Part shown: one piece after another, positions 15,288-31,718 of the stretch
How the letters are laid out: every line of letters starts with the position of its first letter
Numbering within the stretch: position 1 is the stretch's first letter
Source of the DNA: a virus
Length of the DNA: 64,000 nt
IMG/VR virus record: IMGVR_UViG_3300025769_014365
Coordinates: 1-64,000 of that record
Reading direction: 5' to 3' (one strand)
The notes under the pieces: generated by a model
What the model saw: only the letters and a program-made list of their open reading frames with translations
The model's database searches: none
What the model was told of the DNA's origin: nothing
Position numbers and translations under genes: made by a program

Positions 15288-16162
15288 GGTATTCGGAAAT
15301 ATTCTACAGTGTACAAGGCGAGGGGAGGTTCGTTGGAGTGCCTTCGGTGTTCTTTAGGACGTTTGGCTGTAATTTCCACTGCCATGGCTTTGGACAGGGT
15401 AGAGATAGATCAAAATGGATCCAACCCGAAGACATGCCCTACAACACACAGGACATCACAAACATCAAACACATATCCGAACTACCGGTTGTGAACATAG
15501 GTTGCGACGCTTCGGCCAGCTGGAGCGCTAGATACAAGGACCTAGTGGATTGGGATCCTGTAGACGAGATAGCAAAAAAGGTCACAGCACACACACCAGA
15601 GAACCGATGGACCTGTGCGAACGGACAGGATGTTCATTTCATAATCACGGGCGGTGAACCCATGATGTGGCAGAGACAGATCGAGGCACTGATCAGGCAA
15701 CCAGAATTCAACGACTTAAAGAACATCACCGTAGAGACCAACTGCACACAGGCATGGAAGGACAACTTCGACAAGTTCATGCATGGACTGACCGCGGGCG
15801 ATTACACTAAGGAACCTGTACACGTGACATGGTCAACATCACCAAAACTGAGCATATCAGGCGAGGCATGGGAGAAGGCCATAAGAGCGGATGTGGCGAG
15901 GCAATACTCACTGATACCCAACACACACCTATACTTCAAGTTCGTGGTGCAGGACGAACAGGATCTTAAGGAAGTGGATTCGGCAAGGGAGGCATACTCT
16001 AAGGCGGGGGTCACTGGAGACATATATCTCATGGCTGTAGGGGCCACACAGGAAGGTCAATCTAAGACATCATCACAGGTGGCAGAGATGGCCATGAAGA
16101 ACGGCTACAAATACTCCCCAAGACTGCACGTGGACCTGTTCGGAAATAAATGGGGTACATAA
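15275..16162 (+). CDS. queE: 7-carboxy-7-deazaguanine synthase (QueE), phage type
   Basis: Radical SAM ring-contraction enzyme making CDG from carboxytetrahydropterin. N-terminal YSEIFYSVQGEG and GVPSVFFRTFGCNFHC are QueE signatures; GGEPMMW and VETNCTQ match the SAM and substrate strands. The canonical CxxxCxxC is not continuous: Cys32 and Cys36 are followed by HGFGQG, and the third candidate is Cys77 in NIGCDASASW, about 40 residues later. This long-insert pattern resembles other phage QueE proteins (family memory). 295 residues, longer than the ~210-220 of many bacterial forms, because of that insert. It supplies the 7-deazaguanine pathway with FolE and the DpdA-like enzyme. QueC is not in the window. 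Confidence 0.92.
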   Translation: MERIRYSEIFYSVQGEGRFVGVPSVFFRTFGCNFHCHGFGQGRDRSKWIQPEDMPYNTQDITNIKHISELPVVNIGCDASASWSARYKDLVDWDPVDEIAKKVTAHTPENRWTCANGQDVHFIITGGEPMMWQRQIEALIRQPEFNDLKNITVETNCTQAWKDNFDKFMHGLTAGDYTKEPVHVTWSTSPKLSISGEAWEKAIRADVARQYSLIPNTHLYFKFVVQDEQDLKEVDSAREAYSKAGVTGDIYLMAVGATQEGQSKTSSQVAEMAMKNGYKYSPRLHVDLFGNKWGT

Positions 16163-16244: not shown

Positions 16245-17681
16245 ATGGAACTTGCTATATTAATGGCGGGTATCGTCTATGGCTTGATCATTGGCCTGAT
16301 ACCAGCCGCGGGAGCAACAACAGGTCTTATCACACTGTTTGGATTCATGCCCTACTTCGTGGGCGACCCCTACCTGGGCGTGATATTCTGTGTGGCAGTC
16401 GTTGCTTCATCAACAACCGGTGATTCATTCAGTGGTGTGCTACTCGGCATACCCGGAGCCAACTCTGCGGCCGCAACTATGGTGGATGGCTTCCCCATGG
16501 CCAAAAACGGAGAGGCAACACGAGCATTATCAGCCGCCATAACCTCCAGCACTGCCAACGGATTGTTTTGGGGATCACTTACATTTTTATTCTTGCCTTG
16601 GTACACCAAAGTTGTGATGTACATGGGCGTACCTGAACTGTGGGCGCTGGTGCTGTTGGCATTTGTGACTGTTGGATTCGTTTCAACTAGGAAATATATT
16701 AGAAGCACACTAGCCATAGTGTTAGGAGTGACAATAGGACTGGTAGGTGTTGATGTCAATAATGTTCCTCGTTTCACCCTGGGATGGAGATATCTCGAGG
16801 ACGGTGTACAAATATTACCTTTCGTGGCAGGACTGTTCGCCATACCTGAACTGTGGGATGGATGGTTCAACAGAAAAAAGACAACAACAATACGGGCGGA
16901 ACACGGCAGTTGGCATGATCTTAAACAGGGAATGAAAGACACACTTATCTGTTGGAAGGACAGCCTCAGAGGAGGGGCAATAGGTTCTTTTATTGGATTG
17001 TTACCAGGACTGGGTGGAGCAATGGCAGACTGGTTGGCATACGGTGCCACGGTTGCGGCCAATCCCAAGGAGAAGTTTGGTGTGGGCAACGTCAAAGGCG
17101 TGATAGGTGCCGAGGGGGCCAACAACGCACAGAAGGCCTCGTCATTCATTCCAACCGTGCTGTTTGGCATACCGGGTGCCAGTTTCGCCGCGATACTGAT
17201 GGGACTTTTCTTATACCTGGGCATAGACCTAGGATCACCTGACACATTCCACGACGACAGATTATTTGACAGCATGACATTTGCTTTCTTGCTGGGAACG
17301 ATAATTACCGCCGTCATCTGTTATGGACTGGCATATTTCGCAGGTTGGGTCACACGTATTCCATACGTGTATTACTTTCCTTTCATACTTGCTGTGATAA
17401 TCTGGGCCACGCTACAGTACACCGGTGGTTGGGAGGACCTCGCGGTGCTCTTCGCATTCTCGATCTTGGGAGTGCTGTGTAAGAAATTCCAAGTCAGCAG
17501 GCCAGCACTGCTGATCGGATTCCTGTTGAGTGACAGGATCTACAATCTCACTTACCAACTAACAACGCTCCACACGGTGACGGATCTGATCACAAGACCG
17601 ATCTTTATTTCCATAATGATCTGTGTTATACTGTTGCTGTACTGGGGCATAACAAAAAGGAGCAGAATAGACTATGCTTAA
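16245..17681 (+). CDS. tctA: Tripartite tricarboxylate transporter permease (TctA family)
   Basis: Large membrane subunit of a TTT importer for citrate-like acids. 478 residues, near the family's ~500, with about 11-12 hydrophobic segments. The signature is clear: GVLLGIPGANSAAATMVDG, then FPMAKNGEATRAL, and a second inverted-repeat copy LLPGLGGAMADWLAYG...EGANNAQKASSFIPTVLFGIPGAS. The start lies at the first hydrophobic helix (MELAILMAGIVYG). The stop overlaps tctC by 8 bases, so the two are coupled. The small TctB subunit is not present. Phage carriage of such a transporter is unusual; host acquisition as an auxiliary metabolic gene is the likely explanation. Confidence 0.92.
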   Translation: MELAILMAGIVYGLIIGLIPAAGATTGLITLFGFMPYFVGDPYLGVIFCVAVVASSTTGDSFSGVLLGIPGANSAAATMVDGFPMAKNGEATRALSAAITSSTANGLFWGSLTFLFLPWYTKVVMYMGVPELWALVLLAFVTVGFVSTRKYIRSTLAIVLGVTIGLVGVDVNNVPRFTLGWRYLEDGVQILPFVAGLFAIPELWDGWFNRKKTTTIRAEHGSWHDLKQGMKDTLICWKDSLRGGAIGSFIGLLPGLGGAMADWLAYGATVAANPKEKFGVGNVKGVIGAEGANNAQKASSFIPTVLFGIPGASFAAILMGLFLYLGIDLGSPDTFHDDRLFDSMTFAFLLGTIITAVICYGLAYFAGWVTRIPYVYYFPFILAVIIWATLQYTGGWEDLAVLFAFSILGVLCKKFQVSRPALLIGFLLSDRIYNLTYQLTTLHTVTDLITRPIFISIMICVILLLYWGITKRSRIDYA

Positions 17682-18720
17682 GAAAACGATAATGGCGTTG
17701 ATCATAATGACAACAACCGCGATGGCCGACTACAACTTGATTGTGCCTCAAAAACCATCTGGTGGAACTTCTGTGTGGGCACAGATAGTTGTGGCTGAAT
17801 GGGAGAAACACCTGGGTGAGAAGATCAATCTCGTCTACAAGCCAGGTGCTAGAGACCAACTGGGACCAAACGAGTTCCAAAACAAACTGAGATTCGATGA
17901 CCGGACCATACTGGTGTCACACGGTGGTAACGGTATATCATATCTCGTTGAACCCGTGGACTACAACTACCTTGATTGGGAGTCGGTGGGACAGATGAAT
18001 CTCAACATCATAGTGGGCGCCAGGAACAAGGCAGACACAAAGAACGGACCTATCCAGTTTCCATCAGGATCTGGGATGACACCGGAGATCATGGCGATCG
18101 TGATGTTGCTCACAGGACCCAACGATGATCCGGTGAAGACGTTTGAAGAAAAAATCGTATGGGTGAAAGGCATGAAAGGGTCTGAGAGGAGACTCGCATT
18201 CATCAGGGGTGACCTAAACGCTACACGAGAAAATCCTGCCGCGTACAAGAAACACGTGATGCCAGTGATTGAGAAAGGCGATGCCTACACTTGGTTCCAT
18301 CACGGACTCTTGAATGTGAAAACGGGTAAGCACGACAACGATCCAAACTTCACGGAACCAACATTCGAGGCACTGTATGAATCCACACACGGAGTTGCAC
18401 CGAGCGGTGACTTCTATGACGCCTACAAACTGGTCAAGAGTTGGAGGGACGCACTACAGAAGGCTTTCTGGGTGAACAAGGGCAATCCCAACCGGGACAA
18501 GCTCGTTGCCGCACTTGACAGGATGATCAAGGATCCAGAGTCTGTGGCCGCGATAGAGAAAAAGGTTGGCAAGTACGAATGGAGGACGGGTGCGGAGGGC
18601 GACGCCGCGGTGAGGACCCTGAAGTCATTCATCACTCCAGGTGCGTTGAAAACACTATCTGATTTTGGAAAGAACCAGTTGGGTTACAATGCCGTCTACA
18701 AGGAAGAGTTGACCAAATAA
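17674..18720 (+). CDS. tctC: Periplasmic solute-binding protein (TctC/Bug family)
   Basis: Extracytoplasmic receptor partner of TctA. The N-terminus is a classical signal peptide (MLKKTIMALIIMTTTAMA, cleavage likely before DYN). The mature start YNLIVPQKPSGGTSVWAQIV and LVYKPGARDQLGPNEF match the Bug pattern (IVPY.PGG..D..AR; ENRPGAGG..G). 348 residues, slightly longer than the ~300-325 usual. It binds an organic acid in other systems; the ligand here is unknown. Its stop overlaps the next ATG by one base. It completes the receptor/permease pair without TctB. Confidence 0.88.
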   Translation: MLKKTIMALIIMTTTAMADYNLIVPQKPSGGTSVWAQIVVAEWEKHLGEKINLVYKPGARDQLGPNEFQNKLRFDDRTILVSHGGNGISYLVEPVDYNYLDWESVGQMNLNIIVGARNKADTKNGPIQFPSGSGMTPEIMAIVMLLTGPNDDPVKTFEEKIVWVKGMKGSERRLAFIRGDLNATRENPAAYKKHVMPVIEKGDAYTWFHHGLLNVKTGKHDNDPNFTEPTFEALYESTHGVAPSGDFYDAYKLVKSWRDALQKAFWVNKGNPNRDKLVAALDRMIKDPESVAAIEKKVGKYEWRTGAEGDAAVRTLKSFITPGALKTLSDFGKNQLGYNAVYKEELTK

Positions 18721-19304
18721 TGTACATACTGTTCACAGGGGCGCCGGGATCAAAGTGGAGTAGTGTTGTCAAGAACATCTACTGGAGTGCGGACATAGAT
18801 CACACAGATTATTCTGAGGCAAGGACCTACTGGCACGATGCCGACACCCCTGGACGCAAACACCTCATGCACATTGGAGCATACTGGGATCCGGGAATGG
18901 AGTTTGATGTAGACGATTGGAACGGACCTTTCTCGGGCACAGGCAAGAGGATCGTGAAAGCACACACATTCGCACACCAATTGGACAAACTGAAAGACAA
19001 GGGATATCCCATTGTGATGGTCTATAGGAATGACTTCGAGTGTTTGGAGTGGTGGAAACTTTGCGGGGAATTCACGATCACATACCCTAACTACCAACAC
19101 TTCGAAAATCTGGAAAAGATGTGGGGACACATCCAAGCGGAAAACAGAGACACCATGCAGTTCATACGTGACAACAAAGACAGGATAACAAAAGTCAAGG
19201 ACAACGTGGACCTCTGCAGATTATTGGAAATTAGTTTCCCAGACACCAAGGGCAGGATACATAACTACGCACAGAAAGAAGTCGAGGTATATGTCTACAA
19301 GTAA
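18720..19304 (+). CDS. P-loop sulfotransferase-like protein
   Basis: 194 residues. The N-terminal ILFTGAPGSKWSSVVKNIY looks like the PAPS-binding P-loop (GxPxSGTTxL-type), and the later YPIVMVYRNDFECLEWW matches the second PAPS motif (P.V.V.R.P.D...S). Similar proteins with GAPGSKWSS occur in marine T4-like phages (memory). It would transfer sulfate from PAPS to a sugar or protein, but key residues differ from characterised enzymes, so activity is uncertain. The start overlaps the tctC stop (TAATG) and the gene overlaps the 2OG oxygenase downstream by 14 bases. Confidence 0.55.
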   Translation: MYILFTGAPGSKWSSVVKNIYWSADIDHTDYSEARTYWHDADTPGRKHLMHIGAYWDPGMEFDVDDWNGPFSGTGKRIVKAHTFAHQLDKLKDKGYPIVMVYRNDFECLEWWKLCGEFTITYPNYQHFENLEKMWGHIQAENRDTMQFIRDNKDRITKVKDNVDLCRLLEISFPDTKGRIHNYAQKEVEVYVYK

Positions 19305-19947
19305 TTGGGAAGAGTCAAAAGCGAGGAGCGACTACCACTTCAACAAGTGGCACCAGGACACCGACTGCGTCCAACACCTGGGCAGTTTCACGGGTGGCTG
19401 GCAGACCGAGATACAGTCGGTGATCGATGACGCCAAACCCCTCAACTGGGCCAATCGTAGGGAGGGCACGGGCAGGGAAAACACCAACATCAACGTGGAG
19501 GCCGAGGAGAACGACCTCAGGAACGCGGGCGCCGATCCCAAGATGACAATTTACCGAGGTCTCAAGGACTTCACAAAATGTCCTACTCTACAGAGGATGA
19601 CTGACTACTTCTCACTGGAACCAGTGCAATCCAAACTACACATACAGTTTACGGGCGAGGTGTTGAACATGCACATAGACAAACTGTACGACCTAGACGC
19701 TGACCCAAATAATGTTGTCCGTATAATGATCATGCTTCAGGATTGGGAACCAGGCCAGTTCTTGATATATGGTAATGAGCAGTTCGACAGATGGCGGGCA
19801 GGAGACATTCATAAGTTTGACTGGCAAAACATTCCACACGCTACAGCAAACGCCAGCAATAAACCAAGACCCATGTTGGTAATCACAGGTGTGATTACAG
19901 ACAAGACCAAGTATATACTTTCAAAGCCAATTAAGAAAAAGATTTAA
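19291..19947 (+). CDS. 2-oxoglutarate/Fe(II) oxygenase, Asp/Asn hydroxylase-like
   Basis: 218 residues. The iron-binding triad can be read: HID (His128, Asp130) in LNMHIDKLYDL, and His183 in FDWQNIPHATANAS, with Arg193 (KPRPMLVITG) in position to hold 2-oxoglutarate. The intervening RIMIMLQDWEPGQFLIYGN and GDIHKFDW are double-stranded beta-helix strands. Such enzymes hydroxylate protein side chains or small molecules using O2. It lies after the sulfotransferase-like gene, overlapping it. Substrate unknown. Another member of the same superfamily is at 53864-54532. Confidence 0.8.
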   Translation: MSTSNWEESKARSDYHFNKWHQDTDCVQHLGSFTGGWQTEIQSVIDDAKPLNWANRREGTGRENTNINVEAEENDLRNAGADPKMTIYRGLKDFTKCPTLQRMTDYFSLEPVQSKLHIQFTGEVLNMHIDKLYDLDADPNNVVRIMIMLQDWEPGQFLIYGNEQFDRWRAGDIHKFDWQNIPHATANASNKPRPMLVITGVITDKTKYILSKPIKKKI

Positions 19948-19953
19948 ACATTA

Positions 19954-19971
19954 GTAAATTTCTTATATAAT
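19954..19971 (+). promoter_or_regulatory. Composite promoter (GTAAATT-N5-TATAAT)
   Basis: GTAAATT (19954-19960), 5 bases, TATAAT (19966-19971). The ATG at 19980 follows 8 bases later with no Shine-Dalgarno, so a transcript would start at or very near the start codon. Confidence 0.45.
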
Positions 19972-19979
19972 AAACTGAC

Positions 19980-20960
19980 ATGAACAAAAACTTATTCGCA
20001 GTGTGTTGTGACCAGTTTAATCTAGGCACAACTTTTATTATCTGGTCCCTACATTATGTGACGGACCAAACGGAGTTTTATTCACTTGAAAAAGATAGAG
20101 TGTGTTCCATACCAAATAATCCATTAAGAAACGGCACAGCTCATTCTATGGAAATCAACGAGGTCAAATCGATTACAAAAATTAAAGATACTATTGACCA
20201 ATTAAAGGCCAACGGAAATTTTAATCATTTTAGATTTGTCCCAAAGGAAAACTCCCTTGTTGAGTATTCCCAACAAAACGAAAAATTCCAAGAAGCAATG
20301 GCCACACACAATATCAAGGTCGTTAACATTGGTTGTGAAAGGTTACAAGGTCTGATCGGATTCCTAAGATACAATACCGAGGACCTTTCATGGCAAAATG
20401 ATATGAAGAAAGTAAAAAAACATTGTCTGAAATACTGGCCTTCCTTTATGGAAAATTCTCATATATTTCCAAACAAGCTGAACACTTGGCACGATATCAG
20501 AGAAAATATCGCTTTCAACATCAGGCCATATGACCACTGGAAGCAATGGAAGGATAAAAAGTCGACTCGAGAAAATGTCCATGACTGTAAATTTAAATCT
20601 TTCTTGTTTGACCCTGAAAAAGAAATCTCAAATATTTTAAAATTCCTAGGAATTAGCCCTATGAAAAGAATTGCACAATGGTTAGAAGTTCATCATAAAT
20701 GGCTTGCTAATATAGGACATTACATTGTTTTTTGTGATGACATAGAAAAAATAATAAGTCATATACTGAACAACCAGGACATGGATCTCGGAAAATACAA
20801 AATGACCGTGTTAAAAGAAGCAGTCCTACTCCATTTTTTGATGTACAAACACGACCTAAACCTTCATACAAAAGTGGAACACTTACCAAAAAATGCCAAA
20901 GACATATGTAAACTGTTGACAAAAAATAATAGGACCGGAATAGAAAAACTTTATAACTAA
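19980..20960 (+). CDS. Hypothetical AT-rich protein, possibly sulfotransferase-like
   Basis: 326 residues in AT-rich codons, distinct from the flanking phage genes. The opening FAVCCDQFNLGTTFIIWSLH has a short G-T-T turn after a strand, reminiscent of a PAPS-type P-loop, but no second motif is convincing. The middle is rich in Trp/His/Lys (HCLKYWPSFMEN; YDHWKQWKDKK) and the end is helical. It has its own composite promoter. It is grouped with an AT-rich methyltransferase, so both may have arrived together. Function unknown. Confidence 0.6.
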   Translation: MNKNLFAVCCDQFNLGTTFIIWSLHYVTDQTEFYSLEKDRVCSIPNNPLRNGTAHSMEINEVKSITKIKDTIDQLKANGNFNHFRFVPKENSLVEYSQQNEKFQEAMATHNIKVVNIGCERLQGLIGFLRYNTEDLSWQNDMKKVKKHCLKYWPSFMENSHIFPNKLNTWHDIRENIAFNIRPYDHWKQWKDKKSTRENVHDCKFKSFLFDPEKEISNILKFLGISPMKRIAQWLEVHHKWLANIGHYIVFCDDIEKIISHILNNQDMDLGKYKMTVLKEAVLLHFLMYKHDLNLHTKVEHLPKNAKDICKLLTKNNRTGIEKLYN

Positions 20961-20966
20961 CAACAC

Positions 20967-21626
20967 ATGAATAAAAAAATATTAGAACAATTAATAAAAG
21001 ATTCACAAAACGATCTATCTAAAATCACAAGCCCATACATTAGTCAAACTTTCGGAGTATCTGTACAAAGGTGTGATACACTGGAGCAGTATGCCCAGGT
21101 TATAGATGATGCCTGCCTACACAAGTATTTTTCAAAGTATTGGTATAACGATATGAAAAAATGGAAATATTCGGGACTAGCACTTGTGGACGAAGTAAAC
21201 AGCCTAAAACCACGAGCAGTGTTAGACGTTGGGTGTGGCTACAATGAATTCAAAGGCAAGATTCAAAATCTAATAGGAATTGACCCTTATAATGACCGTG
21301 CAGACCTGCAGGTCAGCACCATTGACTTTAAAACGGAACAAAAGTTTGATGTGATATTGTGCTTAGGATCAGTGAACTTTGGTGACAGAGACAAGATAAT
21401 AGCAGAAGTAAACAGATGTGTTAGTCTATTAGAGCAAAATGGCACAATGTTCTTCAGAGTAAATCCAGGAATACAGCATGACAAGTCAGAAGCCAAATGG
21501 ATTGAATTCTTTGCCTGGAACGTTCCATTTATCATAGAGTTAGCGGAAAAATTTCAATTAAAAATATTAGATATTAGAGATGACACCAATCAAAGAAAAT
21601 ACTTTGTGCTGAAAAAAACAAGTTGA
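20967..21626 (+). CDS. Class I SAM-dependent methyltransferase, AT-rich
   Basis: 219 residues. AVLDVGCGYNEFKGKI (about residue 80) is the SAM-binding motif I; LIGIDPYND gives the acidic residue of motif II; KFDVILCLGSVNFG is the post-II strand, and LLEQNGTMFFRVNPG is motif III-like. The first ~70 residues are helical. It begins 6 bases after the preceding AT-rich gene. Substrate unknown; proximity to sulfotransferase- and glycosyltransferase-like genes suggests small-molecule or glycan decoration rather than DNA methylation. Confidence 0.75.
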   Translation: MNKKILEQLIKDSQNDLSKITSPYISQTFGVSVQRCDTLEQYAQVIDDACLHKYFSKYWYNDMKKWKYSGLALVDEVNSLKPRAVLDVGCGYNEFKGKIQNLIGIDPYNDRADLQVSTIDFKTEQKFDVILCLGSVNFGDRDKIIAEVNRCVSLLEQNGTMFFRVNPGIQHDKSEAKWIEFFAWNVPFIIELAEKFQLKILDIRDDTNQRKYFVLKKTS

Positions 21627-21656
21627 CTTTTATGGAAAAAACAAGTAAAATAAGTT

Positions 21657-21983
21657 ATGAAGGTAAAGAAAACAGCAAAGACAACGATAAAAAAAAAGAA
21701 TAAGAAAGGTTCCAAAAAGAGCGAGGAACCAATGGTCAAGGTTCTTAATCTAAATGTCAACCCAGAAAACCCAAGAAACGGTTTCTTTGAGTTAGACTGG
21801 AATGACGAGTTCGTAAACATGCTGAAGCAGTCAGGATACCAGGGTGCCTCCGAGGAGGAGATCGTGGACAGGTGGTTCCAGACGCTTTGTAGGACCATAG
21901 GCAACGAGCAGGGCATAGACGTCACTGGATCTGGCTACGTGCAGATCAATCGTAGGGAAGACGGCAAGACAGAGGTGTCTTAA
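21657..21983 (+). CDS. Conserved phage protein with Lys-rich N-terminus
   Basis: 108 residues. The first 25 are almost entirely Lys/Thr/Ser; an ATG at 21732 after them could be the true start. The conserved core (NPRNGFFELDWNDEF, then GYQGASEEEIVDRWFQTLCR) matches my memory of a small protein found near DNA-metabolism genes in marine T4-like phages. No catalytic motif. The stop overlaps the RNase H ATG by one base, so it is coupled to that gene. Function unknown. Confidence 0.65.
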   Translation: MKVKKTAKTTIKKKNKKGSKKSEEPMVKVLNLNVNPENPRNGFFELDWNDEFVNMLKQSGYQGASEEEIVDRWFQTLCRTIGNEQGIDVTGSGYVQINRREDGKTEVS

Positions 21984-22972
21984 TGACACACATACTAGTA
22001 GACACAGCCAACACATTCTTCAGGGCCAGACACGTGATACGTGGAGACACTTCCGAGAAGGTAGGAATGGCCATACACATCATGATGAACAGCATCAAGA
22101 AGGCATGGCAGGACTTCGAGGGCAAACATGTGGTATTCTGTCTAGAGGGCAGATCGTGGCGCAAGGACCACTACGCACCATACAAGCGTAACCGTAAGGA
22201 GATGGCCGACGCCATGACCGAGAAAGAAAAGGAAGAAAACGAGGTGTTCTGGGAGGTGTACGATGACTTCGTGGACTTCATCAAGACCAAGACCAACGCA
22301 ACAGTATTAAGGAACCCTAGAGCAGAGGCAGATGATCTTATAGCAAGATGGATCGACAAGCACCCAGACGACAATCACGTCATAATCAGCACAGACAAGG
22401 ATCTAAATCAACTGATAACACCCAGGGTAAAACAGTACAACGGTGTCAATGAAACCACATTAACACACGAGGGTTGGTTTGACGCCAAGGGCAACCCTGT
22501 GATAGACAAAAAACTGAAGGCACCCAAACCTGCACCGGACACGGAATGGATAGTGTTCGAGAAGGCCATGAGGGGTGATCCAAGTGACAACATATTCTCA
22601 GCATACCCAGGTGTAAGAACAAAGGGCACCAAGAACAAGATCGGCCTACAGGAGGCCTACGCGGACAGGCACGAGAAGGGCTACACATGGAACAACCTCA
22701 TGTTGAGCAAGTGGGTGGACCATGACGGCAACGAACACAGGGTACTGGAAGACTACGAACGTAACAGGCTACTAGTGGACCTACACGCACAGCCAGAGGC
22801 CATCATAGAGGAACTGGACCAGACCATAGCACAGGCCAAGTCAGAGGCCAAGAACGTGGGACAGGTTGGGATCAGATTCATGAGGTTCTGTGCCAAGTAC
22901 GATCTGAATAGGATCAGTGAGCAGGCACAACTGTATGTCGAACCCTTCAATGCTAGACTAGAAAATGTTTGA
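21983..22972 (+). CDS. rnh: RNase H / 5'-3' exonuclease, T4 Rnh type
   Basis: FEN-family nuclease that removes RNA primers from Okazaki fragments. 329 residues (T4 RNase H is 305). Metal-binding acids lie in the expected places: Asp7 (ILVDTANTFFRARH), Glu115/Asp117/Asp118 (AEADDLIARW), Asp138/Asp140 (STDKDLNQLI) and a GDPSDNI helix-hairpin-helix segment near residue 200. YAPYKRNRK is the arch/clamp motif. It belongs functionally with the polymerase and clamp at the left end of the window. It overlaps the following gene by 8 bases. Confidence 0.93.
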   Translation: MTHILVDTANTFFRARHVIRGDTSEKVGMAIHIMMNSIKKAWQDFEGKHVVFCLEGRSWRKDHYAPYKRNRKEMADAMTEKEKEENEVFWEVYDDFVDFIKTKTNATVLRNPRAEADDLIARWIDKHPDDNHVIISTDKDLNQLITPRVKQYNGVNETTLTHEGWFDAKGNPVIDKKLKAPKPAPDTEWIVFEKAMRGDPSDNIFSAYPGVRTKGTKNKIGLQEAYADRHEKGYTWNNLMLSKWVDHDGNEHRVLEDYERNRLLVDLHAQPEAIIEELDQTIAQAKSEAKNVGQVGIRFMRFCAKYDLNRISEQAQLYVEPFNARLENV

Positions 22973-24074
22973 CACTGTTTATCATAATTTAATTTACAAA
23001 GATTTCCTACGGTCACCTCACGCTGATTGCTATGACACGGTAGACCAAATACATCTAGAACATTTTTCAGAACAAGATTTAGAAGCTATCAAACAGAAAT
23101 CCAACGGTAACCTCAAATGTATATTTTTACACACTGCCGAACCCCATTGGTACGACGAGGGCGATTTGATAAGTCGCCAATTTAAGGAGTTCATGAATCT
23201 ATGCAGGAAAATTGGCATATACAACGTTGACTTCTATGTTACATGTTTAGAAGGTGCTTATCAAAATGATTTCAAAGCAATGAACAACAACTATTGGGAC
23301 TGGAATTTCATACCATATTATATCGACCTTCCGTGGTGTTGGGATGATTTTGCCACGATTACAAATCACAATGTTGAACAAGATACACACGTAGATCAAA
23401 TTAGACACAAATTCCTACACATGAATTTCACACACAGGATGCACAGGCAACTGTTCAGCAAGTTCCTTATCAGAGAAAATCTAATCGATGGCAACTGCGT
23501 GGCGATAAACATCTCTGATAGATTAAAAACTGCTGAGGAATTACAAACTGCTGAGGAAAAGAACTTTCCTAGAGCTATCCTAACAAACCAAAACGACGAT
23601 TGGCGCCTGAACAAAAACCTATCAACTTTATGGAGAGATACAACCTTAACAAAGCACGGGCACCCACTTATTGATAGTAATTTTGACAAATCTTATTACG
23701 GCTTTTTAAAAAAAGCCGGAGTGTACATCATAAGTGAGACTGTTTTCCATCACCCACATCCGTATTTCAGTGAAAAGACCGTGAGTGCCCTGTTGTCGAA
23801 CAGGCCATTCATCATCATAGGTGCCCAGGGCAGTCTCAGAGCACTCAAGCAGAAGGGCTACAAGACTTTCAATGACGTGTTTGACGAATCGTATGACAAT
23901 ATCATAGATCCTTCATCTAGAATGGAATCAATTTTTGATCTGGTTAAAAACATAAACTCAAGGTCGTTGGATCAGCTCAAGGAAAATGTTCTACAATGCC
24001 AAGACAAGTTATTTCACAACAGGAAATTAATGCTGACAACAATCAGTAGGTATACAGGAGCAGACACACAATAA
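22965..24074 (+). CDS. Unknown protein A of a mosaic paralog pair
   Basis: 369 residues. Two blocks are shared with the next gene: a 34-residue block starting KFLHMNFTHRMHRQLFS, and a ~48-residue block containing SETVFHHPHP, then FSEKTVSALLSNRPFIIIG and RALKQKGYKTF. The SEKT...RPFIIIG...LK..GYKTF pattern resembles proteins near glycosyltransferases in marine phages, perhaps a sugar-transferase domain; this is unproven. The remainder is AT-rich and differs from its paralog, while the shared blocks use the GC-richer codons of core phage genes. It starts inside the RNase H gene end (8 bases). Confidence 0.65.
   Translation: MFDTVYHNLIYKDFLRSPHADCYDTVDQIHLEHFSEQDLEAIKQKSNGNLKCIFLHTAEPHWYDEGDLISRQFKEFMNLCRKIGIYNVDFYVTCLEGAYQNDFKAMNNNYWDWNFIPYYIDLPWCWDDFATITNHNVEQDTHVDQIRHKFLHMNFTHRMHRQLFSKFLIRENLIDGNCVAINISDRLKTAEELQTAEEKNFPRAILTNQNDDWRLNKNLSTLWRDTTLTKHGHPLIDSNFDKSYYGFLKKAGVYIISETVFHHPHPYFSEKTVSALLSNRPFIIIGAQGSLRALKQKGYKTFNDVFDESYDNIIDPSSRMESIFDLVKNINSRSLDQLKENVLQCQDKLFHNRKLMLTTISRYTGADTQ
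23409..23510 (+). repeat. Direct repeat block 1, copy A
   Basis: 102 bases identical, base for base, to 24535-24636. It lies inside the coding region of protein A; flanking DNA is strongly diverged from the paralog. Confidence 0.95.
23721..23866 (+). repeat. Direct repeat block 2, copy A
   Basis: 146 bases with only 5 differences from 24850-24995 (four clustered near base 23760, one at 23791). It encodes the SEKT...RPFIIIG motif of protein A. Confidence 0.93.
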
Positions 24075-24078
24075 AAAA

Positions 24079-25224
24079 ATGTACACATACAGGCATAATC
24101 TATACGACAAATTGATATTCCAAGATTTCAAGCAATCTCCTCACGCACAAGGTTACGAACAAATTTTCCTACTAAGTCTTGAATTGATGTCGTTGCATGA
24201 CTTAGACTCCATCAAGGAAAACAATAATGTCCTGAATAAAAAATGTATCTTCTTGTCAATGAGTGAACCACAATGGTACGATGACGGTGCTTTGGTAAGC
24301 CTTCAGTTAAACAAGTTTGTGGATCTGTTAAGACAAAAACAGATTTTCAATGCTGATATTTTTGTTCCATGTTTTGGTAATCAATATCACAATGACTTAG
24401 AAATACTTAATCAGAATTATTATGGATGGAACTTCCTGCAGTATAACGTGGACCTACCATTTGCCAACAACGATGTTGTGAAAGAGATCGAAACCACACA
24501 CAATGAAGATTTGTTTTTAGAGCAGATAAAATATAAATTCCTACACATGAATTTCACACACAGGATGCACAGGCAACTGTTCAGCAAGTTCCTTATCAGA
24601 GAAAATCTAATCGATGGCAACTGCGTGGCGATAAACACTAACAACGATAACTTTAGAGACGAACATTACGATGATCATGATCGTCTTTTTGGCGAAGAGG
24701 CATGCATACCAGTTAATCGAAGGGATGATTGGTCCTACAACAAAAAACTGTTAGATTTGTGGAGAGGAACACCTATCACCGATCACAAGAATCCAAACAT
24801 AGATCAAAACTATTCGCGTGCCAGTTACAATTTTTGTAGGTTGAGTGTAGTGTACATCATAAGTGAGACTGTTTTCCATCACCCACACCCTAACTTCAGT
24901 GAAAAGACCGTGAGTGCCCTATTGTCGAACAGGCCATTCATCATCATAGGTGCCCAGGGCAGTCTCAGAGCACTCAAGCAGAAGGGCTACAAGACGTTTG
25001 ACAATTTCATCGATGAATCTTATGACAGCATCGCATGTCCTAACCAACGTTTGGAACAGATATTCGAATTGGTTAAACAAATTAATAAAAAAACTTTAAG
25101 CGAACTTACCGCACATCTCAAAGATTGCCAAGGTAGTATAACTCATAATCGAAAACTGATGCTGAACACCATACGTAAGTACACTAATCACATAAACAAA
25201 GAGGAGATAAAAAATGCCAGTTAG
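24079..25224 (+). CDS. Unknown protein B of a mosaic paralog pair
   Basis: 381 residues, starting 4 bases after protein A. It has the same plan: N-terminal AT-rich region (PHAQGYEQIF versus PHADCYDTVD), shared block 1, a divergent middle, shared block 2 with SEKT...RPFIIIGAQGSLRALKQ, and a helical C-terminus ending with a conserved TIRKYT-like stretch. Divergence outside the blocks is high even where amino-acid positions align, while DNA in the blocks is essentially unchanged, so the blocks appear to have been homogenised. Function unknown; a glycan-related role is possible from motif similarity only. It overlaps the next gene by 11 bases. Confidence 0.65.
   Translation: MYTYRHNLYDKLIFQDFKQSPHAQGYEQIFLLSLELMSLHDLDSIKENNNVLNKKCIFLSMSEPQWYDDGALVSLQLNKFVDLLRQKQIFNADIFVPCFGNQYHNDLEILNQNYYGWNFLQYNVDLPFANNDVVKEIETTHNEDLFLEQIKYKFLHMNFTHRMHRQLFSKFLIRENLIDGNCVAINTNNDNFRDEHYDDHDRLFGEEACIPVNRRDDWSYNKKLLDLWRGTPITDHKNPNIDQNYSRASYNFCRLSVVYIISETVFHHPHPNFSEKTVSALLSNRPFIIIGAQGSLRALKQKGYKTFDNFIDESYDSIACPNQRLEQIFELVKQINKKTLSELTAHLKDCQGSITHNRKLMLNTIRKYTNHINKEEIKNAS
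24535..24636 (+). repeat. Direct repeat block 1, copy B
   Basis: 102 bases identical to 23409-23510, including all third codon positions. Confidence 0.95.
24850..24995 (+). repeat. Direct repeat block 2, copy B
   Basis: 146 bases, 5 mismatches to 23721-23866; ends abruptly at CAAGAC, after which the paralogs diverge. Confidence 0.93.
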
Positions 25225-25717
25225 AGCAAAGACACTAGTCAAAGACAAGTTCTGGATAGTCGAGGAAAATGGCCATAAACTGGGCACCCTTTCTAAACAA
25301 GCGGACAACGGTTGGATATTCCTCAGCAAACAGGACAAGAGGCAGGTGTTCCACACACAGGAAAGCCTGTTCACGAAGTTCGGATTTGGTATTTTTGACG
25401 ATTCTAATGCGAAAAGGGCCGAGGAAGAAGTTCAGAAGGACAATTTCGATGTGCATGGTTATCCGTGCAGTCAGCACCCATACAACCCAATGTTCGACGT
25501 GCAGAAGCAGTTGCCAGTGTACACCAAGACCCCAAAGAGCAAGAGCCAGTTCTGTGCTGGATACTACATCATATGCTTCGAAAAAGGGTGGAGGAAGGCC
25601 TACTGTCCAAAGATGATAACACTGTCTAGGTACGAGTACAAAGGACCCATGAAGACCAAACTAGAAATGCAACAGGTACTGAACAATGCCATCAAAGAAT
25701 TCCAAGATTCAAACTAG
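25214..25717 (+). CDS. Conserved marine-phage protein of unknown function
   Basis: 167 residues with ribosome site GAGGAG before the ATG. The first ~60 residues (FWIVEENGHKLGTL, then DNGWIFLSKQDKRQVF) look like a small beta domain. The second part has a distinctive conserved run (VHGYPCSQHPYNPMFDVQ; then QFCAGYYIICF..GW.KAYCPK) with three cysteines. I recall this as a conserved hypothetical of T4-like cyanophages, without a known role. It overlaps the next gene by 32 bases. Confidence 0.7.
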   Translation: MPVRAKTLVKDKFWIVEENGHKLGTLSKQADNGWIFLSKQDKRQVFHTQESLFTKFGFGIFDDSNAKRAEEEVQKDNFDVHGYPCSQHPYNPMFDVQKQLPVYTKTPKSKSQFCAGYYIICFEKGWRKAYCPKMITLSRYEYKGPMKTKLEMQQVLNNAIKEFQDSN

Positions 25718-25949
25718 GCCCATAGAGGACCTCATAGGCAGGATCCGTACACTGCGCCAACGTGGTGAGAGGCAGATCGTGATACCAGCAAAAGAGGCGG
25801 ATCAACTGGCTGATAGCCTAAGTCAAGTCATGACCCGCATGGTCACGATCCAGGAAGAGATCATAGAAGCACTCAAGACCGCCAAGGAATCACAGACCAT
25901 CAACATCGAGATGGACGGTGGCGGGTTTTCTACTCCAGACGAGGAATAA
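25686..25949 (+). CDS. Small coiled-coil protein
   Basis: 87 residues. A central long helix (EADQLADSLSQVMTRMVTI, then QEEIIEALKTAKES) suggests oligomerisation. The start lies inside the preceding gene and the stop overlaps the converging minus-strand gene by 20 bases. It closes the first plus-strand block. Function unknown. Confidence 0.55.
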   Translation: MPSKNSKIQTRPIEDLIGRIRTLRQRGERQIVIPAKEADQLADSLSQVMTRMVTIQEEIIEALKTAKESQTINIEMDGGGFSTPDEE

Positions 25950-26712
25950 TCAATTCACACAGATCATTGTTGTAGGCAGGGTCTACAGGATGTCCGCAGA
26001 CCCCTCTTCTGTAACCAGACCAAAACACACTGAAATCATCCATCACAACTTTATCAAGGATATCTTCAGGCACATCATCCTTTGATTGGAAGATGTAGAG
26101 ATCATCTATTTTTCTCTCGGCGGACAAATGCTGTATTCTTTTCAGCACCCTCAAATAGTGTTTCTTGATGTATCCGTCGCGTGTGACGAAGTCGCGATAT
26201 TTTTTCTTGACTCGCTCTATCTCCCTGCCTGATCGTTCGACATCGAACCCAAAATTATCATGCAGTTCCTGGGGTAGCACATTGACCCTGCCATACTCCT
26301 CACTGAATCTCATGTACAGCCTCCCGGGCTCCGGTAATTGGTGTATGGTCAGCTTCTTTTGTGTTGAATTGTGCGGGGTACCTTTGACATGCCGTGAATA
26401 CTCCAACAGGGTACGTGGCAGAGACGCACCTATCTCCGACAGGTTGATCACAGGAATGCCAGTGAGCTTTTGTAGGCGTGCCGGCCAGCTGGCTTCTTGT
26501 TTTTCTTTTTTTTGCCACTGCTTCCTGCTGGTGTTGAGGATCTCTAGACCGTCCATGTTTAGGACATCAAAATTCTGCCTGTACCATTCCACTATGCGAT
26601 CGTCCCTTTCTTGTGCGTTCTGGAAGTTGGGCAACAAGTGGTCATTCATTTCCATGCCTGAGGACAGACTGCATCCCGTGACCACAATTAGATCGTAATG
26701 TTTCGAAGTCAT
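25930..26712 (-). CDS. SGNH/GDSL-like protein, isolated and inverted
   Basis: 260 residues. The start VVTGCSLSSGMEMND gives the GxS nucleophile block of SGNH hydrolases (Ser near residue 15). A later NLSEIGASLPRTL resembles block II. The C-terminal catalytic region reads GHPVDPAYNNDLCELI, in which the expected DxxH histidine is Tyr, so hydrolase activity is doubtful. It is the only minus-strand gene between two plus-strand blocks and is related in layout to the proteins at 39341 and 45227, which belong to the radical SAM cluster. It shares the 79-base divergent region with 26792. Confidence 0.65.
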   Translation of the reverse strand: MTSKHYDLIVVTGCSLSSGMEMNDHLLPNFQNAQERDDRIVEWYRQNFDVLNMDGLEILNTSRKQWQKKEKQEASWPARLQKLTGIPVINLSEIGASLPRTLLEYSRHVKGTPHNSTQKKLTIHQLPEPGRLYMRFSEEYGRVNVLPQELHDNFGFDVERSGREIERVKKKYRDFVTRDGYIKKHYLRVLKRIQHLSAERKIDDLYIFQSKDDVPEDILDKVVMDDFSVFWSGYRRGVCGHPVDPAYNNDLCELIIPRLE

Positions 26713-26763
26713 AAGCCTATTTACGGTGAGATACTGTCACAGGAAAAAATCATAAAATTTCTG

Positions 26764-26782
26764 GTAAATACAGTTGTATAAT
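26764..26782 (+). promoter_or_regulatory. Composite promoter in the divergent region
   Basis: GTAAATA (26764-26770), 6 bases, TATAAT (26777-26782). The ATG at 26792 is 9 bases further on and lacks a clear ribosome site. Confidence 0.5.
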
Positions 26783-26791
26783 TTTACACCT

Positions 26792-27082
26792 ATGAGCAGA
26801 CCAAAACCCACAGTGTTGTTACAACACAGTAACAAAACCACCTACAAGATGGACGAGGTCTTGGCGGCCGAGGGCATCTGGGCGGTGTTCTACGATGGTA
26901 AGCCCATCAATTTGAAATCAAGCAGTCTTGTTTCAAACTATCCCGGACCAAAGTACAAGAAGGTTTCGTTCTCAAACCCAGGACACGCGGAGAACCTAGC
27001 CAAGAAACTGAACGCACAGCACAACACCGATAAGTTTGGTGTGTACCTGCTGAAGACCGGCGAAAAATTCAAACGCAAATAA
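26792..27082 (+). CDS. Conserved small phage protein
   Basis: 96 residues from the ATG at 26792; an in-frame ATG at 26774 lies inside the -10 region and is less likely. Conserved-looking stretch: MSRPKPTVLLQHSNKTTYK, then EGIWAVFYDGKPINLK and YPGPKYKKVSFSNPGHAENLAKKLN. I recall this as a frequent hypothetical of T4-like marine phages. The end is basic. No function assigned. Confidence 0.7.
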   Translation: MSRPKPTVLLQHSNKTTYKMDEVLAAEGIWAVFYDGKPINLKSSSLVSNYPGPKYKKVSFSNPGHAENLAKKLNAQHNTDKFGVYLLKTGEKFKRK

Positions 27083-27100
27083 CCACCGTTAAATAGCAGT

Positions 27101-27496
27101 ATGGATCGCAAGACCGCATACACACGCACCTTCATGGAACTGTTGGAACAACCAATCCATGACGAGAGCATCAAGACCAACTACTACACTTGGTGGCAGA
27201 ATGTTCGTGAGAGTTACCAAGCCAGAAGTTTACGCCTCACCAAACAGGGATTGGAGATGTTGGAAAATCTGGACATCAAGACCTATGACATAAAATTTCC
27301 AGCCAAGGTCATATTCACCCCTCAGACCTATCTCTGGTTGGATGAATTCGTTGATTGTCCCTACTATGTAGACAAAAAGCACATTAAAGTGACCATGGAG
27401 AAAATGGCTCTACAACTAATGCTTTTCGCTGGAGACATCACCAAATACGGGCTAGCCCGGGCAATGAGCAAGATGGACGAGCAAAAAAGCCAATAA
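27101..27496 (+). CDS. Hypothetical protein
   Basis: 131 residues, mostly helical (YTRTFMELLEQPIHDESIK; MEKMALQLMLFAGDITKYGL). TTAAATA lies 5 bases before the ATG (27089-27095). The gene is followed by an inverted repeat and a promoter for the MoxR gene. Function unknown. Confidence 0.6.
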   Translation: MDRKTAYTRTFMELLEQPIHDESIKTNYYTWWQNVRESYQARSLRLTKQGLEMLENLDIKTYDIKFPAKVIFTPQTYLWLDEFVDCPYYVDKKHIKVTMEKMALQLMLFAGDITKYGLARAMSKMDEQKSQ

Positions 27497-27508
27497 AAAC
27501 GCGACTTC

Positions 27509-27543
27509 TGTGCGGTTGACCGCACACACATTCCTGCTATAAT
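27509..27543 (+). promoter_or_regulatory. Promoter of the moxR-like gene with a palindrome over the -35
   Basis: TTGACC (27516-27521) and TATAAT (27538-27543) are 16 bases apart. The -35 is the loop and start of the right arm of a perfect 7-bp inverted repeat, TGTGCGG (27509-27515) / CCGCACA (27520-27526). This could be an operator or an RNA hairpin ending the upstream transcript; there is no T-run after it. Confidence 0.55.
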
Positions 27544-27577
27544 GATATTATAAACATTTAAAACAGGAGTGTACTAA

Positions 27578-28684
27578 ATGGTAAGAGCAAACAAAAACAA
27601 AGAGGCGGCGGTAGGTTCTCAGAACAGAACAGTATCACCAAACGAGGCAAAATCAGCATTAACACATTGTATCAAACTACAAAGACCCATAATGATGTGG
27701 GGAGCACCAGGTATTGGTAAGTCAGACATAGTCAAGCAGATCGCGGACGCGGAAGGCAGAGAAGTGATCGACATCAGACTTCCATTATGGGAGCCCACAG
27801 ATATCAAAGGTATCCCTTATTACAATTCAAAAGAAAACAACATGGTTTGGGCGAGTCCGGCAGAACTGCCAACTGATCCCAAATCAAACGCCATAGTGTT
27901 CCTGGACGAGTTGAACTCGGCGGCACCGGCTGTACAGGCGGCGGCGTACCAGTTGATCCTTAACAGAAGGGTTGGACAGTACCACCTACCAGAGGGTGTT
28001 TCGATCGTGGCGGCGGGCAACAGAGATTCAGATAAAGGTGTCACTTACAGGATGCCAGCACCGTTGGCCAACAGATTCGTACACGTAGAACTGAGGGTGG
28101 ACTTCGAGGACTGGTTACAATGGGCCACAGAACAGCACGTACACGCGGACGTTGTGGGTTACTGCACATTCGCAAAACAAGATTTATATGATTTCGATCC
28201 AAAAGGGTCATCGAGATCATTCGCGACTCCAAGATCTTGGAGTTTCGTAAGCCAACTTCTATCAGACGACCTGCCAGAAAGTACGCTCACTGACCTCGTA
28301 GCAGGTTGCGTAGGAGAAGGACTGGCCGTTAAGTTTATGAATCATCGTAAAATTAGCGGTCAGTTACCTAACCCGTCTGATATCTTGAGCGGTAAAGTAA
28401 GAGATCTAAAAACAAAAGAAATATCAGCGATGTACTCACTGACGGTTTCGTTGTGCTATGAACTACAACAGGCACACCAGAACGGTGACAAGAAGTGGAA
28501 CGACATGGCTGACAGGTTCTTCAACTACATGATGGACAACTTCGAGACTGAGCTTGTGGTGATGGGTGCCAAGATAGCACTCACGAACTACAAACTTCCG
28601 TTCGATCCTAGCAAGTTGAAATCATTTGATAGGTTCCATAAGAAGTTTGGCAAGTACGTCATAACTGCTATGGAGTCTAAATAA
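27578..28684 (+). CDS. MoxR-family AAA+ ATPase
   Basis: 368 residues. Walker A WGAPGIGKSD (residues 41-50), Walker B AIVFLDELNSA (Asp110/Glu111), sensor-1 region VSIVAAGNRDSD, and an ANRFVHVEL box follow the MoxR pattern. MoxR proteins work with VWA-domain partners as chaperones that insert metal or remodel complexes. The VWA gene follows immediately: this stop (TAA) overlaps the next ATG by one base. It has a strong promoter with palindrome and ACAGGAG ribosome site. In marine T4-like phages this pair is recurrent but its job is not known. Confidence 0.9.
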   Translation: MVRANKNKEAAVGSQNRTVSPNEAKSALTHCIKLQRPIMMWGAPGIGKSDIVKQIADAEGREVIDIRLPLWEPTDIKGIPYYNSKENNMVWASPAELPTDPKSNAIVFLDELNSAAPAVQAAAYQLILNRRVGQYHLPEGVSIVAAGNRDSDKGVTYRMPAPLANRFVHVELRVDFEDWLQWATEQHVHADVVGYCTFAKQDLYDFDPKGSSRSFATPRSWSFVSQLLSDDLPESTLTDLVAGCVGEGLAVKFMNHRKISGQLPNPSDILSGKVRDLKTKEISAMYSLTVSLCYELQQAHQNGDKKWNDMADRFFNYMMDNFETELVVMGAKIALTNYKLPFDPSKLKSFDRFHKKFGKYVITAMESK

Positions 28685-29925
28685 TGGACTACAGGGAACA
28701 GAAGATCATAGACAAACTGGTTACGGCGCGGATCGCACTGCTACTGAAACATCCGTTCTTTGGCAACCTGGCGACTAGGTTGAAACTTGTGAACGCTGAC
28801 GACTGGTGTCCAACTGCGGGCACTGACGGCAGGCACTTCTTCTACAACACCAAGTTCATAGATTCACTGACTCCAAAAGAGGCGGAGTTCCTGTTCGGAC
28901 ACGAGGTGCTACACAACGTATTCGAACACATGCTGGTGAGGATTGGTGACAGGGATCCACAACTTTGGAACATAGCGGCGGACTACGCCGTGAACCAGAT
29001 ACTGAAGGATTCAAACATCGGTGAAATGCCAAAAGGTGAGAAGGGCGAGAACAAGGGCTTCCAGGACGACAAGTACAAGGACTGGGCTTCAGAGAGGATA
29101 TACGACGACCTGTACAAGACAGCCAAGAAGAACGGCAAGAAGTTCCTCGAGAAACTGGGCGAGTTAATGGATGACCACCAGGAGTGGGGCAAGGGTGACG
29201 GTGACTCAAAAGACAAGGGCGAAGGGAAAGGCAATAAAGGTGGCAAGGGCAGACCCGTGTACACCAAGGAAGAATTGAAGAAGATCAGGGACGAAGTCAA
29301 AGAAGCGATGGTGTCAGCGGCACAGTCAACAGGTGCCAGCAACCTACCAGGCGCACTACAGAGACTAGTATCACAACTCACGGAACCCAAGATGGACTGG
29401 AGGGAGATACTACAACAACAGATAATGAGCACCATTAAGTCGGACTACACTTGGATGAGACCTTCTAGAAAGAGTTGGCACACATCTGCCATACTGCCAG
29501 GACAGAACAATGACGAGATGATCGATATATGCTTGGCTCTTGACGCGTCAGGATCAATCAGCAATGAACAATGTACCGAGTTCTTGACAGAAGTGAAGAA
29601 CATAATGGACCAATACAAGGACTTCAGGATACATCTTTGGAGTTTTGACACAGAGGTGTTCAACCCTGTGGTGTTCACGCCAGACAACGCAGACGAGTTG
29701 TTGGACTACAAACTGGGTTCAGGTGGTGGTACAGAATTCGAATGTAATTGGAAATACATGAAGGACCAGGGCATAGAGCCCAAGAAGTTCGTGATGTTCA
29801 CGGACGGTTGGCCTTTTGATTCATGGGGTGACGCTGACTACTGTGACACTATATTCTTAATCAACAATCCATACGAGAGGGACATAGAGGCCCCGTTTGG
29901 ACTAACGGTGCAGTACGATGATTAG
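28684..29925 (+). CDS. VWA-like protein with metallopeptidase-type N-terminus (DUF2201-like)
   Basis: 413 residues. N-terminal zinc-type motif HEVLHNVFEH (His73, Glu74, His77) sits in a helix after a Pro/Lys-rich loop. A hydrophilic Gly/Lys/Asp linker (about residues 165-195) separates it from the C-terminal VWA domain, with MIDAS motif LDASGSIS (about residue 293), the TEF turn, and a final GDAD/D. It forms the expected substrate-adapter partner of the MoxR ATPase. Overlaps MoxR by one base and the next micro-gene by 8. The biological substrate is unknown. Confidence 0.88.
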   Translation: MDYREQKIIDKLVTARIALLLKHPFFGNLATRLKLVNADDWCPTAGTDGRHFFYNTKFIDSLTPKEAEFLFGHEVLHNVFEHMLVRIGDRDPQLWNIAADYAVNQILKDSNIGEMPKGEKGENKGFQDDKYKDWASERIYDDLYKTAKKNGKKFLEKLGELMDDHQEWGKGDGDSKDKGEGKGNKGGKGRPVYTKEELKKIRDEVKEAMVSAAQSTGASNLPGALQRLVSQLTEPKMDWREILQQQIMSTIKSDYTWMRPSRKSWHTSAILPGQNNDEMIDICLALDASGSISNEQCTEFLTEVKNIMDQYKDFRIHLWSFDTEVFNPVVFTPDNADELLDYKLGSGGGTEFECNWKYMKDQGIEPKKFVMFTDGWPFDSWGDADYCDTIFLINNPYERDIEAPFGLTVQYDD

Positions 29926-30028
29926 GATACTTTGGGAAACATTCAAGGATTGGTTCCTCAACGAGGTGTCCATATCCATAATGTGCTTTGGCCTGTTGGC
30001 GATAGCACTGTGGAGTTACATCACATGA
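29918..30028 (+). CDS. Micro membrane protein 1 (36 aa)
   Basis: 36 residues: an amphipathic N-terminus (MIRILWETFKDWFLNEV) then a single hydrophobic helix ending in LWSYIT. The ATG lies inside the end of the VWA gene (8-base overlap) and its TGA overlaps the next ATG (ATGA). This coupling on both sides supports translation despite its size. Membrane role unknown. Confidence 0.55.
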   Translation: MIRILWETFKDWFLNEVSISIMCFGLLAIALWSYIT

Positions 30029-30111
30029 GGAATTTTTTCGAAAACCCAATAGTGTTGGCTGTCATAATCGTCAGCATATCACTGTTGATAATGCAGATAG
30101 GGATAGGATAA
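30025..30111 (+). CDS. Micro membrane protein 2 (28 aa)
   Basis: 28 residues, MRNFFENPI followed by one hydrophobic helix of ~17 residues. ATG overlaps the previous stop (ATGA) and its TAA overlaps the following ATG (TAATG). Translational coupling on both sides makes it a likely real gene. Function unknown. Confidence 0.5.
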   Translation: MRNFFENPIVLAVIIVSISLLIMQIGIG

Positions 30112-30353
30112 TGAGTGACCTTTGGATAGAAGACGTTGAGTACCACAGGGTCAACCTCACCAAGAGATACACCCTGGATGAGGAAGACGTCATAAAAGAA
30201 TTCGGTTCAGTTGAGAAGTTCAAGGAACTGTTCGACACCGAAGACGAACGTGCTAGGCAGTACGTGTACGAAGGCGACTATGAAACAGACGAGGACTGGT
30301 GGACCGCCAACAAGGGTGGATACGAGATAGACACCACGACGAGCTGGGAGTAG
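30111..30353 (+). CDS. Small acidic protein
   Basis: 80 residues, very acidic (about a quarter Asp/Glu), no Cys. Central helix EDVIKEFGSVEKFKELFDTE; C-terminus TSWE. Start coupled to the upstream micro-gene (TAATG). No motif recognised. Confidence 0.6.
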   Translation: MSDLWIEDVEYHRVNLTKRYTLDEEDVIKEFGSVEKFKELFDTEDERARQYVYEGDYETDEDWWTANKGGYEIDTTTSWE

Positions 30354-30356
30354 GAT

Positions 30357-30713
30357 ATGATGATGTTTCCAAACACGAATCCGTATTCAGGCAAACTCGA
30401 GAAAGTTAAAAACCTGAGAAACTGGATGATAGATGCCGCAACAATTCTTTTCGACGACACCAAAAACGATCTGAGGGCACTGCCCAAGACCGTGAGACTA
30501 CAGATATTATTAACCCTTAGTTTCCTTTGGAGCACAGCATTCACTATCTACGTTTGGGGCATCAGGACTGACCTATGGTTGAGTTGGTTCTTGGGACACC
30601 TCGCGGTGATATTCGTTGCATACTACACATTCAAGCAGTTCCACAAGAAACCATACACGATGAAACCTGACCAACAGGAGCCACCCATGTATGACGACGT
30701 TTGGGGGGCCTAG
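30357..30713 (+). CDS. Two-helix membrane protein
   Basis: 118 residues; hydrophilic N-terminal ~50 residues, then two membrane helices (LQILLTLSFLWSTAFTIYVW and SWFLGHLAVIFVAYYTF) and a proline-rich tail. Three ATG codons in a row at the start (MMMF) make the exact start uncertain by up to 6 bases. It lies 3 bases after the acidic gene and the next gene follows its stop at once. Unknown function; holin-like topology but no other support. Confidence 0.6.
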   Translation: MMMFPNTNPYSGKLEKVKNLRNWMIDAATILFDDTKNDLRALPKTVRLQILLTLSFLWSTAFTIYVWGIRTDLWLSWFLGHLAVIFVAYYTFKQFHKKPYTMKPDQQEPPMYDDVWGA

Positions 30714-31073
30714 ATGAGAGACATCTCAAAGATGGACTACTTCCAAAATCTCATGTCAGTTTTGGTGGACAACACCAGGAGGCTGTTCAGGCTACACGGC
30801 AAGGAGTATGAACTGATGCCAGAGGCTCACACCATAAACGCAGAGATGACCAAGACTGGCAACTGGATAGACCACATACCAGGCGGATTCAAGACCATAG
30901 TCCACACCGAACCACAGCAGTTCGTGAGAGAAGCAATAGAGGGTGTGCTACCAGGATACAGGCAACAGGCGATAAAACTGATCGAGCATTTCAGGAACAC
31001 CAGCAAGGCACAAGGACTAGATGCTACTATAGTGGACGAGCACTTTGACAAGGAGTACAGGTATGAGGATTAA
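30714..31073 (+). CDS. Hypothetical protein
   Basis: 119 residues, mixed alpha/beta, no membrane segment. Stretches MDYFQNLMSVLVDNTRRLF and REAIEGVLPGYRQQAIKLIE appear helical. It follows the previous stop directly and overlaps the next start by 11 bases. Function unknown. Confidence 0.6.
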   Translation: MRDISKMDYFQNLMSVLVDNTRRLFRLHGKEYELMPEAHTINAEMTKTGNWIDHIPGGFKTIVHTEPQQFVREAIEGVLPGYRQQAIKLIEHFRNTSKAQGLDATIVDEHFDKEYRYED

Positions 31074-31329: not shown

Positions 31330-31332
31330 TCG

Positions 31333-31361: not shown

Positions 31362-31402
31362 ATACGTATATTAATACCAATTGCAATTAGGAGAAAAACA
31401 AA

Positions 31403-31717: not shown

Positions 31718-31718
31718 C

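Follow-up and report, generated by a model that had tools for sequence, protein, structure and literature searches.

Evidence for recent ectopic gene conversion between two tandem, putative GT-B-like glycosyltransferase genes of an uncultivated phage

The two blocks of near-identical DNA that are shared by adjacent and otherwise strongly diverged genes in the phage sequence analysed here are, very probably, recent ectopic (non-allelic) gene-conversion tracts between two old tandem paralogs of a phage family of putative GT-B-like glycosyltransferases. We regard the tracts as recent and recurrent because the excess of identity over the remainder of the genes occurs only within genomes, because the DNA of the blocks is not conserved, and because the unconverted segments are orthologous. 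The window, i.e. the whole stretch of 64,000 nucleotides analysed, is a piece of the 96,195-base record of an uncultivated virus, the record itself being a genome fragment. A first-pass annotation had offered recent gene conversion or a cassette system as explanations for the blocks, and the former is supported by the restriction of the block excess to same-genome pairs and by the separate homogenisation of block 1 in a related phage, L002.

Copy 1 (W1; 22965–24074, + strand) encodes a 369 aa putative GT-B-like glycosyltransferase, an assignment that draws on the ORF, on orthologs in L002, L003 and L005, and on a structure model and its fold matches; copy 2 (W2; 24079–25224, +), an ORF with orthologs in L001, L002 and L003, encodes a 381 aa paralog, and the two proteins are 53 % identical. 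Block 1 of copy 1 (23409–23510, +; codons 149–182) is identical to its counterpart in copy 2 (24535–24636, +) at 102/102 positions, and block 2 (23721–23866, +; codons 253–301) matches 24850–24995 (+) over 146 bases with five mismatches (95.9 % identity), exactly as had been annotated. Four of these five mismatches cluster in codons 265–267 of copy 1, a three-codon island within the conversion tract, and copy 2 keeps its own type of residue, Asn, at the codon matching codon 267. The divergence described around the blocks was also found, the DNA of W1 and W2 being 45–56 % identical outside them, and the described identity extends, as claimed, to silent positions: at codons for the same amino acid, Met and Trp left out, the copies agree at 32/32 sites in block 1 and 44/48 in block 2, compared with 45/107 outside (Fisher p = 1.5e-10 and 1.3e-9, respectively). 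Runs tests on shuffled sites gave 13/2000 for silent codons and 0/2000 for all polymorphic sites. For 16 other paralog pairs of the window, agreement at such codons was 34–54 %, with longest runs of 3–12 as against 32 in W1–W2. The identity of the blocks lies far beyond both chance and what protein conservation gives in this phage genome.

Elsewhere in the window, two tail-fibre-like paralogs (51447–52649 and 57359–58534, −) share a run of 12 identical same-amino-acid codons at 51940–51983 and 57840–57883, where uninterrupted identity extends over 24 and 16 nt, codon agreement being 42 % otherwise; from the sequence, this may be a second, smaller conversion tract. A glycine-rich tail-like protein (54525–55949, −) has a C-terminal stretch that looks Hint/intein-like by eye and has no Pfam match.

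The significance of the blocks was assessed by comparing 11 homologs from nine related phages in all 55 pairs, with correction for about 110 tests. An excess of agreement in the blocks survived correction only in two same-genome pairs, namely W1–W2 in both blocks and the L002 pair, B1 (copy 1) and B2 (copy 2), in block 1 only (22/26 versus 35/94 outside, p 1.5e-5); these two pairs also gave the strong signals in the runs tests. No cross-phage pair among the 55 showed a significant block excess, and synonymous sites have been homogenised only between genes of the same genome. Related phages that carry the same two genes, to which the first-pass annotation had looked for a contrary result, were found to behave in the same way at block 1, L002 and L003 showing the excess there in different DNA and none in block 2. 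Since the block-1 DNA of the window and of L002 differ, homogenisation happened independently in no fewer than two phage lineages, two being the number of independent tandem-pair lineages compared. Near-identity that includes silent sites and is bounded by diverged flanks, the pattern by which ectopic gene conversion is recognised, is thus accompanied by same-genome copies that are closer to each other than to their orthologs in the tracts only, as seen by trees for block 1 and by codons for both blocks.

The blocks might be thought to stay alike without exchange, through purifying selection acting directly on the DNA or through strong selection on codons within the motifs; they do encode the most conserved residues, and conserved columns outside them likewise have raised third-position GC in W1 and B1. 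Comparison across phages refutes this reading, however, as only same-genome pairs agree. For the orthologs W1 and B1, synonymous agreement was 0.65 in block 1, 0.63 in block 2 and 0.67 outside, and for W2 and B2 it was 0.56 and 0.49 versus 0.47; by correction for all pairs, orthologs of different phages agree no better inside the blocks than outside. At one and the same block-1 site, serine is encoded by AGC in W1 and W2 and by TCC in B1 and B2. Between phages the block DNA shows no conservation, its silent codons differing as much as those elsewhere, and we find selection scarcely credible as a substitute for conversion. The difference in composition between blocks and variable parts had been recorded beforehand and is borne out, with third-position GC of 0.63–0.65 in the blocks and 0.32–0.45 outside. 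Phage core genes have values of 0.51–0.63; the blocks of W1, W2 and B1 are core-gene-like (0.62–0.67) and the remainder of these genes is not (0.32–0.47), and B2, D and most other homologs are without so large a step. Conversion alone does not predict the raised value in the blocks of W1, W2 and B1; codon selection at conserved sites accounts for part of the rise and biased conversion is a possible contributor.

Tree tests separated the histories of the segments. For block 1 the orthology tree was rejected (AU p = 0.0019), whereas for codons 1–148, 183–252 and 302–365 only the orthology tree was accepted, so that the segments between and around the tracts retain orthologous ancestry. For block 2 the orthology tree is not rejected; its topology says little because the window copies are at nearly zero mutual distance, and it is this distance that carries the signal. 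These results weigh against the cassette system suggested at first pass, in which recombination would act at fixed blocks and swap the AT-rich parts between copies or between phages. The sharp edges of the blocks, the step in composition between them and the remainder, and the position of the pair in an accessory slot of variable content are all features that a cassette would show. Yet every variable segment keeps one orthologous tree, without reassortment between copies, and the search for swapped variable parts in related phages that had been recommended, made here by the tree tests, found none. Nor is the block DNA fixed, as it differs between phages at silent codons as much as the remainder does; the 29-nt core of block 1 has no exact copy in IMG/VR; and L001, which carries the copy-2 type alone, is of that type in every segment and is not a fusion. 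We therefore consider a cassette highly improbable.

An artefact of short-read assembly, by duplication or collapse of the two genes, has equally little to recommend it, even though the source is an uncultivated virus record and an exact 102-nt repeat can confuse assembly. Gene order and reading frames are intact, every unconverted segment matches its own ortholog, and the five differences retained in block 2, four of them clustered, would have been erased by collapse. Moreover, the tandem pair is also present in contigs of three other IMG/VR datasets (L002, L003 and L005/L094); L002 and L003, from different datasets, differ by a single base in 11 kb. L094 is almost the same as L002 as far as the end of copy 1, a gene in which the two agree fully over 1131 bp, but their copy-2 genes differ by 5 %, the L094 contig ending inside copy 2. 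In block 1, copy 2 of L002 matches copy 1 over 57 nt and copy 2 of L094 does so over a shorter stretch. Because such nearly identical contigs differ in the copy-1-like stretch of copy 2, gene conversion between the tandem copies appears to be ongoing.

The direction of conversion was assessed at sites where copy 1 of L002 differs from copy-2 types, the state shared by the window copies being compared with the background of each lineage. For codons 268–300 the log10 likelihood ratio was 2.86 in favour of copy 1 as donor, for codons 253–267 it was −2.06, leaning to copy 2 as donor, and for block 1 it was an ambiguous −0.43. Judged by these sites, the direction is resolved for codons 268–300 only, where copy 1 would have been copied into copy 2; transfer from copy 1 to copy 2 in all tracts was considered and set aside, as the site tally supports it for codons 268–300 only. 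With codons 253–267 leaning the opposite way and block 1 ambiguous, no single one-way event covers all tracts, and there was probably more than one conversion event, in both directions. The mismatch island at codons 265–267 sits at the border between the two parts of block 2.

The tracts lie on the two motifs that are best conserved in the protein, and we propose that strand exchange by a phage recombinase of the UvsX/RecA type would start in these motifs, because only there do the two gene types share identical runs of about 17–21 nt. In cross-phage comparisons of P1 with P2 (copy-2) types, the longest shared run lay in block 1, at 17–21 nt versus 9–14 nt outside (pairs with W1, W2, B1, B2, A2 and D), and runs common to both types were mostly under 15 nt outside block 1. 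As the longer shared runs lie in the motifs, exchange would have to end near the motif edges, stopping where similarity drops to about 50 % and so giving the sharp borders. It would be tolerated if both putative enzymes have the same nucleotide-sugar-binding half, built from these motifs, with the N-terminal half and the insert at codons 183–252 remaining copy-specific. The exchanging copies may belong to a single molecule or to different progeny genomes inside the same cell, and the data fit either. A RecA-family gene is present on a related 196-kb contig; a search for the RecA and Rad52 families found neither in the 96-kb record, which is a fragment. There is published evidence that diverged phage sequences recombine (PMC3945230).

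Conversion might instead be driven by a homing endonuclease that cuts a conserved motif, repair then copying the paralog. In the relative L100, an ORF just downstream of the slot (3729–4277, +), which by eye resembles a GIY-YIG nuclease gene, is absent from that place in the window. Nuclease genes mark the borders of exchange in phages, according to one report (PMC10448857). Against this, no nuclease other than the core exonuclease is recognisable in or beside the slot of the window or L002, and conversion confined to conserved motifs needs no site-specific cut, so that an endonuclease is very unlikely to be responsible.

The gene pair lies in a defined slot. Its left border is a 5′–3′ exonuclease gene (PF02739; 21983–22972, +), identified by Pfam match and junction comparison, and its right border is a conserved gene for a 167 aa protein (25214–25717, +), with 533 confirmed IMG/VR relatives. 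Among 80 contigs fetched by means of the 167 aa gene, the two border genes adjoin directly in 71, the slot being empty; the other nine contain the copy 1/2 family at seven loci and unrelated genes at two (L052 and L089). Wherever both borders are visible, family copies are always between them, and the slot is an accessory site. Single family copies occur in L004, L060, L061, L064, L079 and L097/L100, and L001 carries only the copy-2 type. Judged by its border genes (90 and 93 % DNA identity), L001 is the closest relative of the window, yet its copy-2 gene is more similar to copy 2 of L002 than to W2, and on these sequence comparisons the history of the slot is judged to differ from that of its borders. 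Among 50,697 named phage records there was no match to the copy 1 protein and no near-identical match to the DNA at 17674–32276.

Upstream of the slot, the window contains a TctA-family transporter gene (PF01970, E 2e-93; 16245–17681, +) followed by a gene for a 348 aa protein resembling a secreted solute-binding protein and without a Pfam match (17674–18720, +). Both recur in L094, and such a tripartite-transporter-like gene set is unusual in a phage. Genes for GTP cyclohydrolase I (PF01227) and a Vut_1 transporter (PF02592) lie near a QueE-like ORF (10059–10772, 13733–14383 and 15275–16162, +), and may represent a 7-deazaguanine pathway for DNA modification.

The copy 1/2 proteins have no significant Pfam, PHROG or PDB sequence match, none of 35 family members matched the GT10 profile in Pfam, and a search with the family motif pattern found no bacterial genome contig. 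An earlier structure model from seven sequences was poor (pLDDT 48), whereas one built from 35 sequences (34 homologs) is confident (pLDDT 86, pTM 0.86). Its top PDB fold matches are GT-B glycosyltransferases, albeit weak ones (best E 6e-3, low TM-scores), and a BFVD fold search returned 23 proteins with E up to 1e-3, nearly all uncharacterised and from uncultured phages, the last being a mimivirus GT10 protein (E 8.7e-4). GT-B glycosyltransferases, the GT10 fucosyltransferases among them, are the closest known enzymes by these weak fold matches, and we regard the family as putatively GT-B-like. In the model, the blocks make up strands and helices within the C-terminal half; most of the family-invariant residues (R158, R161, E258, E270, K271, P281 and G298) lie in them, and the invariant Glu and Glu-Lys pattern is similar to the donor motif of GT10 enzymes. 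At 40131–47336 (−), several radical-SAM-like paralogs alternate with SGNH-like genes, and distant GT-like relatives of the pair adjoin similar genes in L006 and L147.

It is conceivable, if unlikely, that the tandem pair is a selected arrangement, in which repeated exchange keeps the donor-sugar-binding core common while the acceptor half and the 183–252 insert diversify, so that the two enzymes would use the same donor and changing acceptors, the raised core GC resulting from repeated biased conversion. The pair is a clean natural case of paralogs of one phage genome that trade tracts of about 100 nt though the genes are only about half identical in DNA, and the exchange has occurred twice independently at the same protein motif. 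This helps to set the similarity that phage recombination needs in nature, cautions that a tree built from such genes combines different histories from within a single gene, and shows a so far unnamed family of GT-B-like phage proteins to occupy a defined accessory slot.

Cellular ectopic (interlocus) conversion of tandem paralogs offers a close parallel, with its patchy tracts, synonymous homogenisation within genomes only, sharp edges and preference for a conserved domain; the genome here, however, is that of a phage. Converting duplicates in cells are expected to be far less diverged than the window pair outside its tracts. A literature search that covered few subscription papers, and is weak evidence, found no direct precedent in which paralogs of the same phage had converted each other. 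De Paepe et al. (2014; PMC3945230), writing on phage mosaicism by relaxed homologous recombination, modelled 80 % identical islands in 60 % identical DNA, reported a median mosaic of 131 bp and 91.5 % identity among virulent phages, and stated that repeated sequences are usually absent from phage genomes. Short tracts exchanged at conserved regions of strongly diverged sequence are common to that process and to the one proposed here, but the partners there are different phages or prophages and here are two tandem genes of one genome. The mechanism is therefore already known between phages, and it is the intragenomic, recurrent form that is new, to a modest degree.
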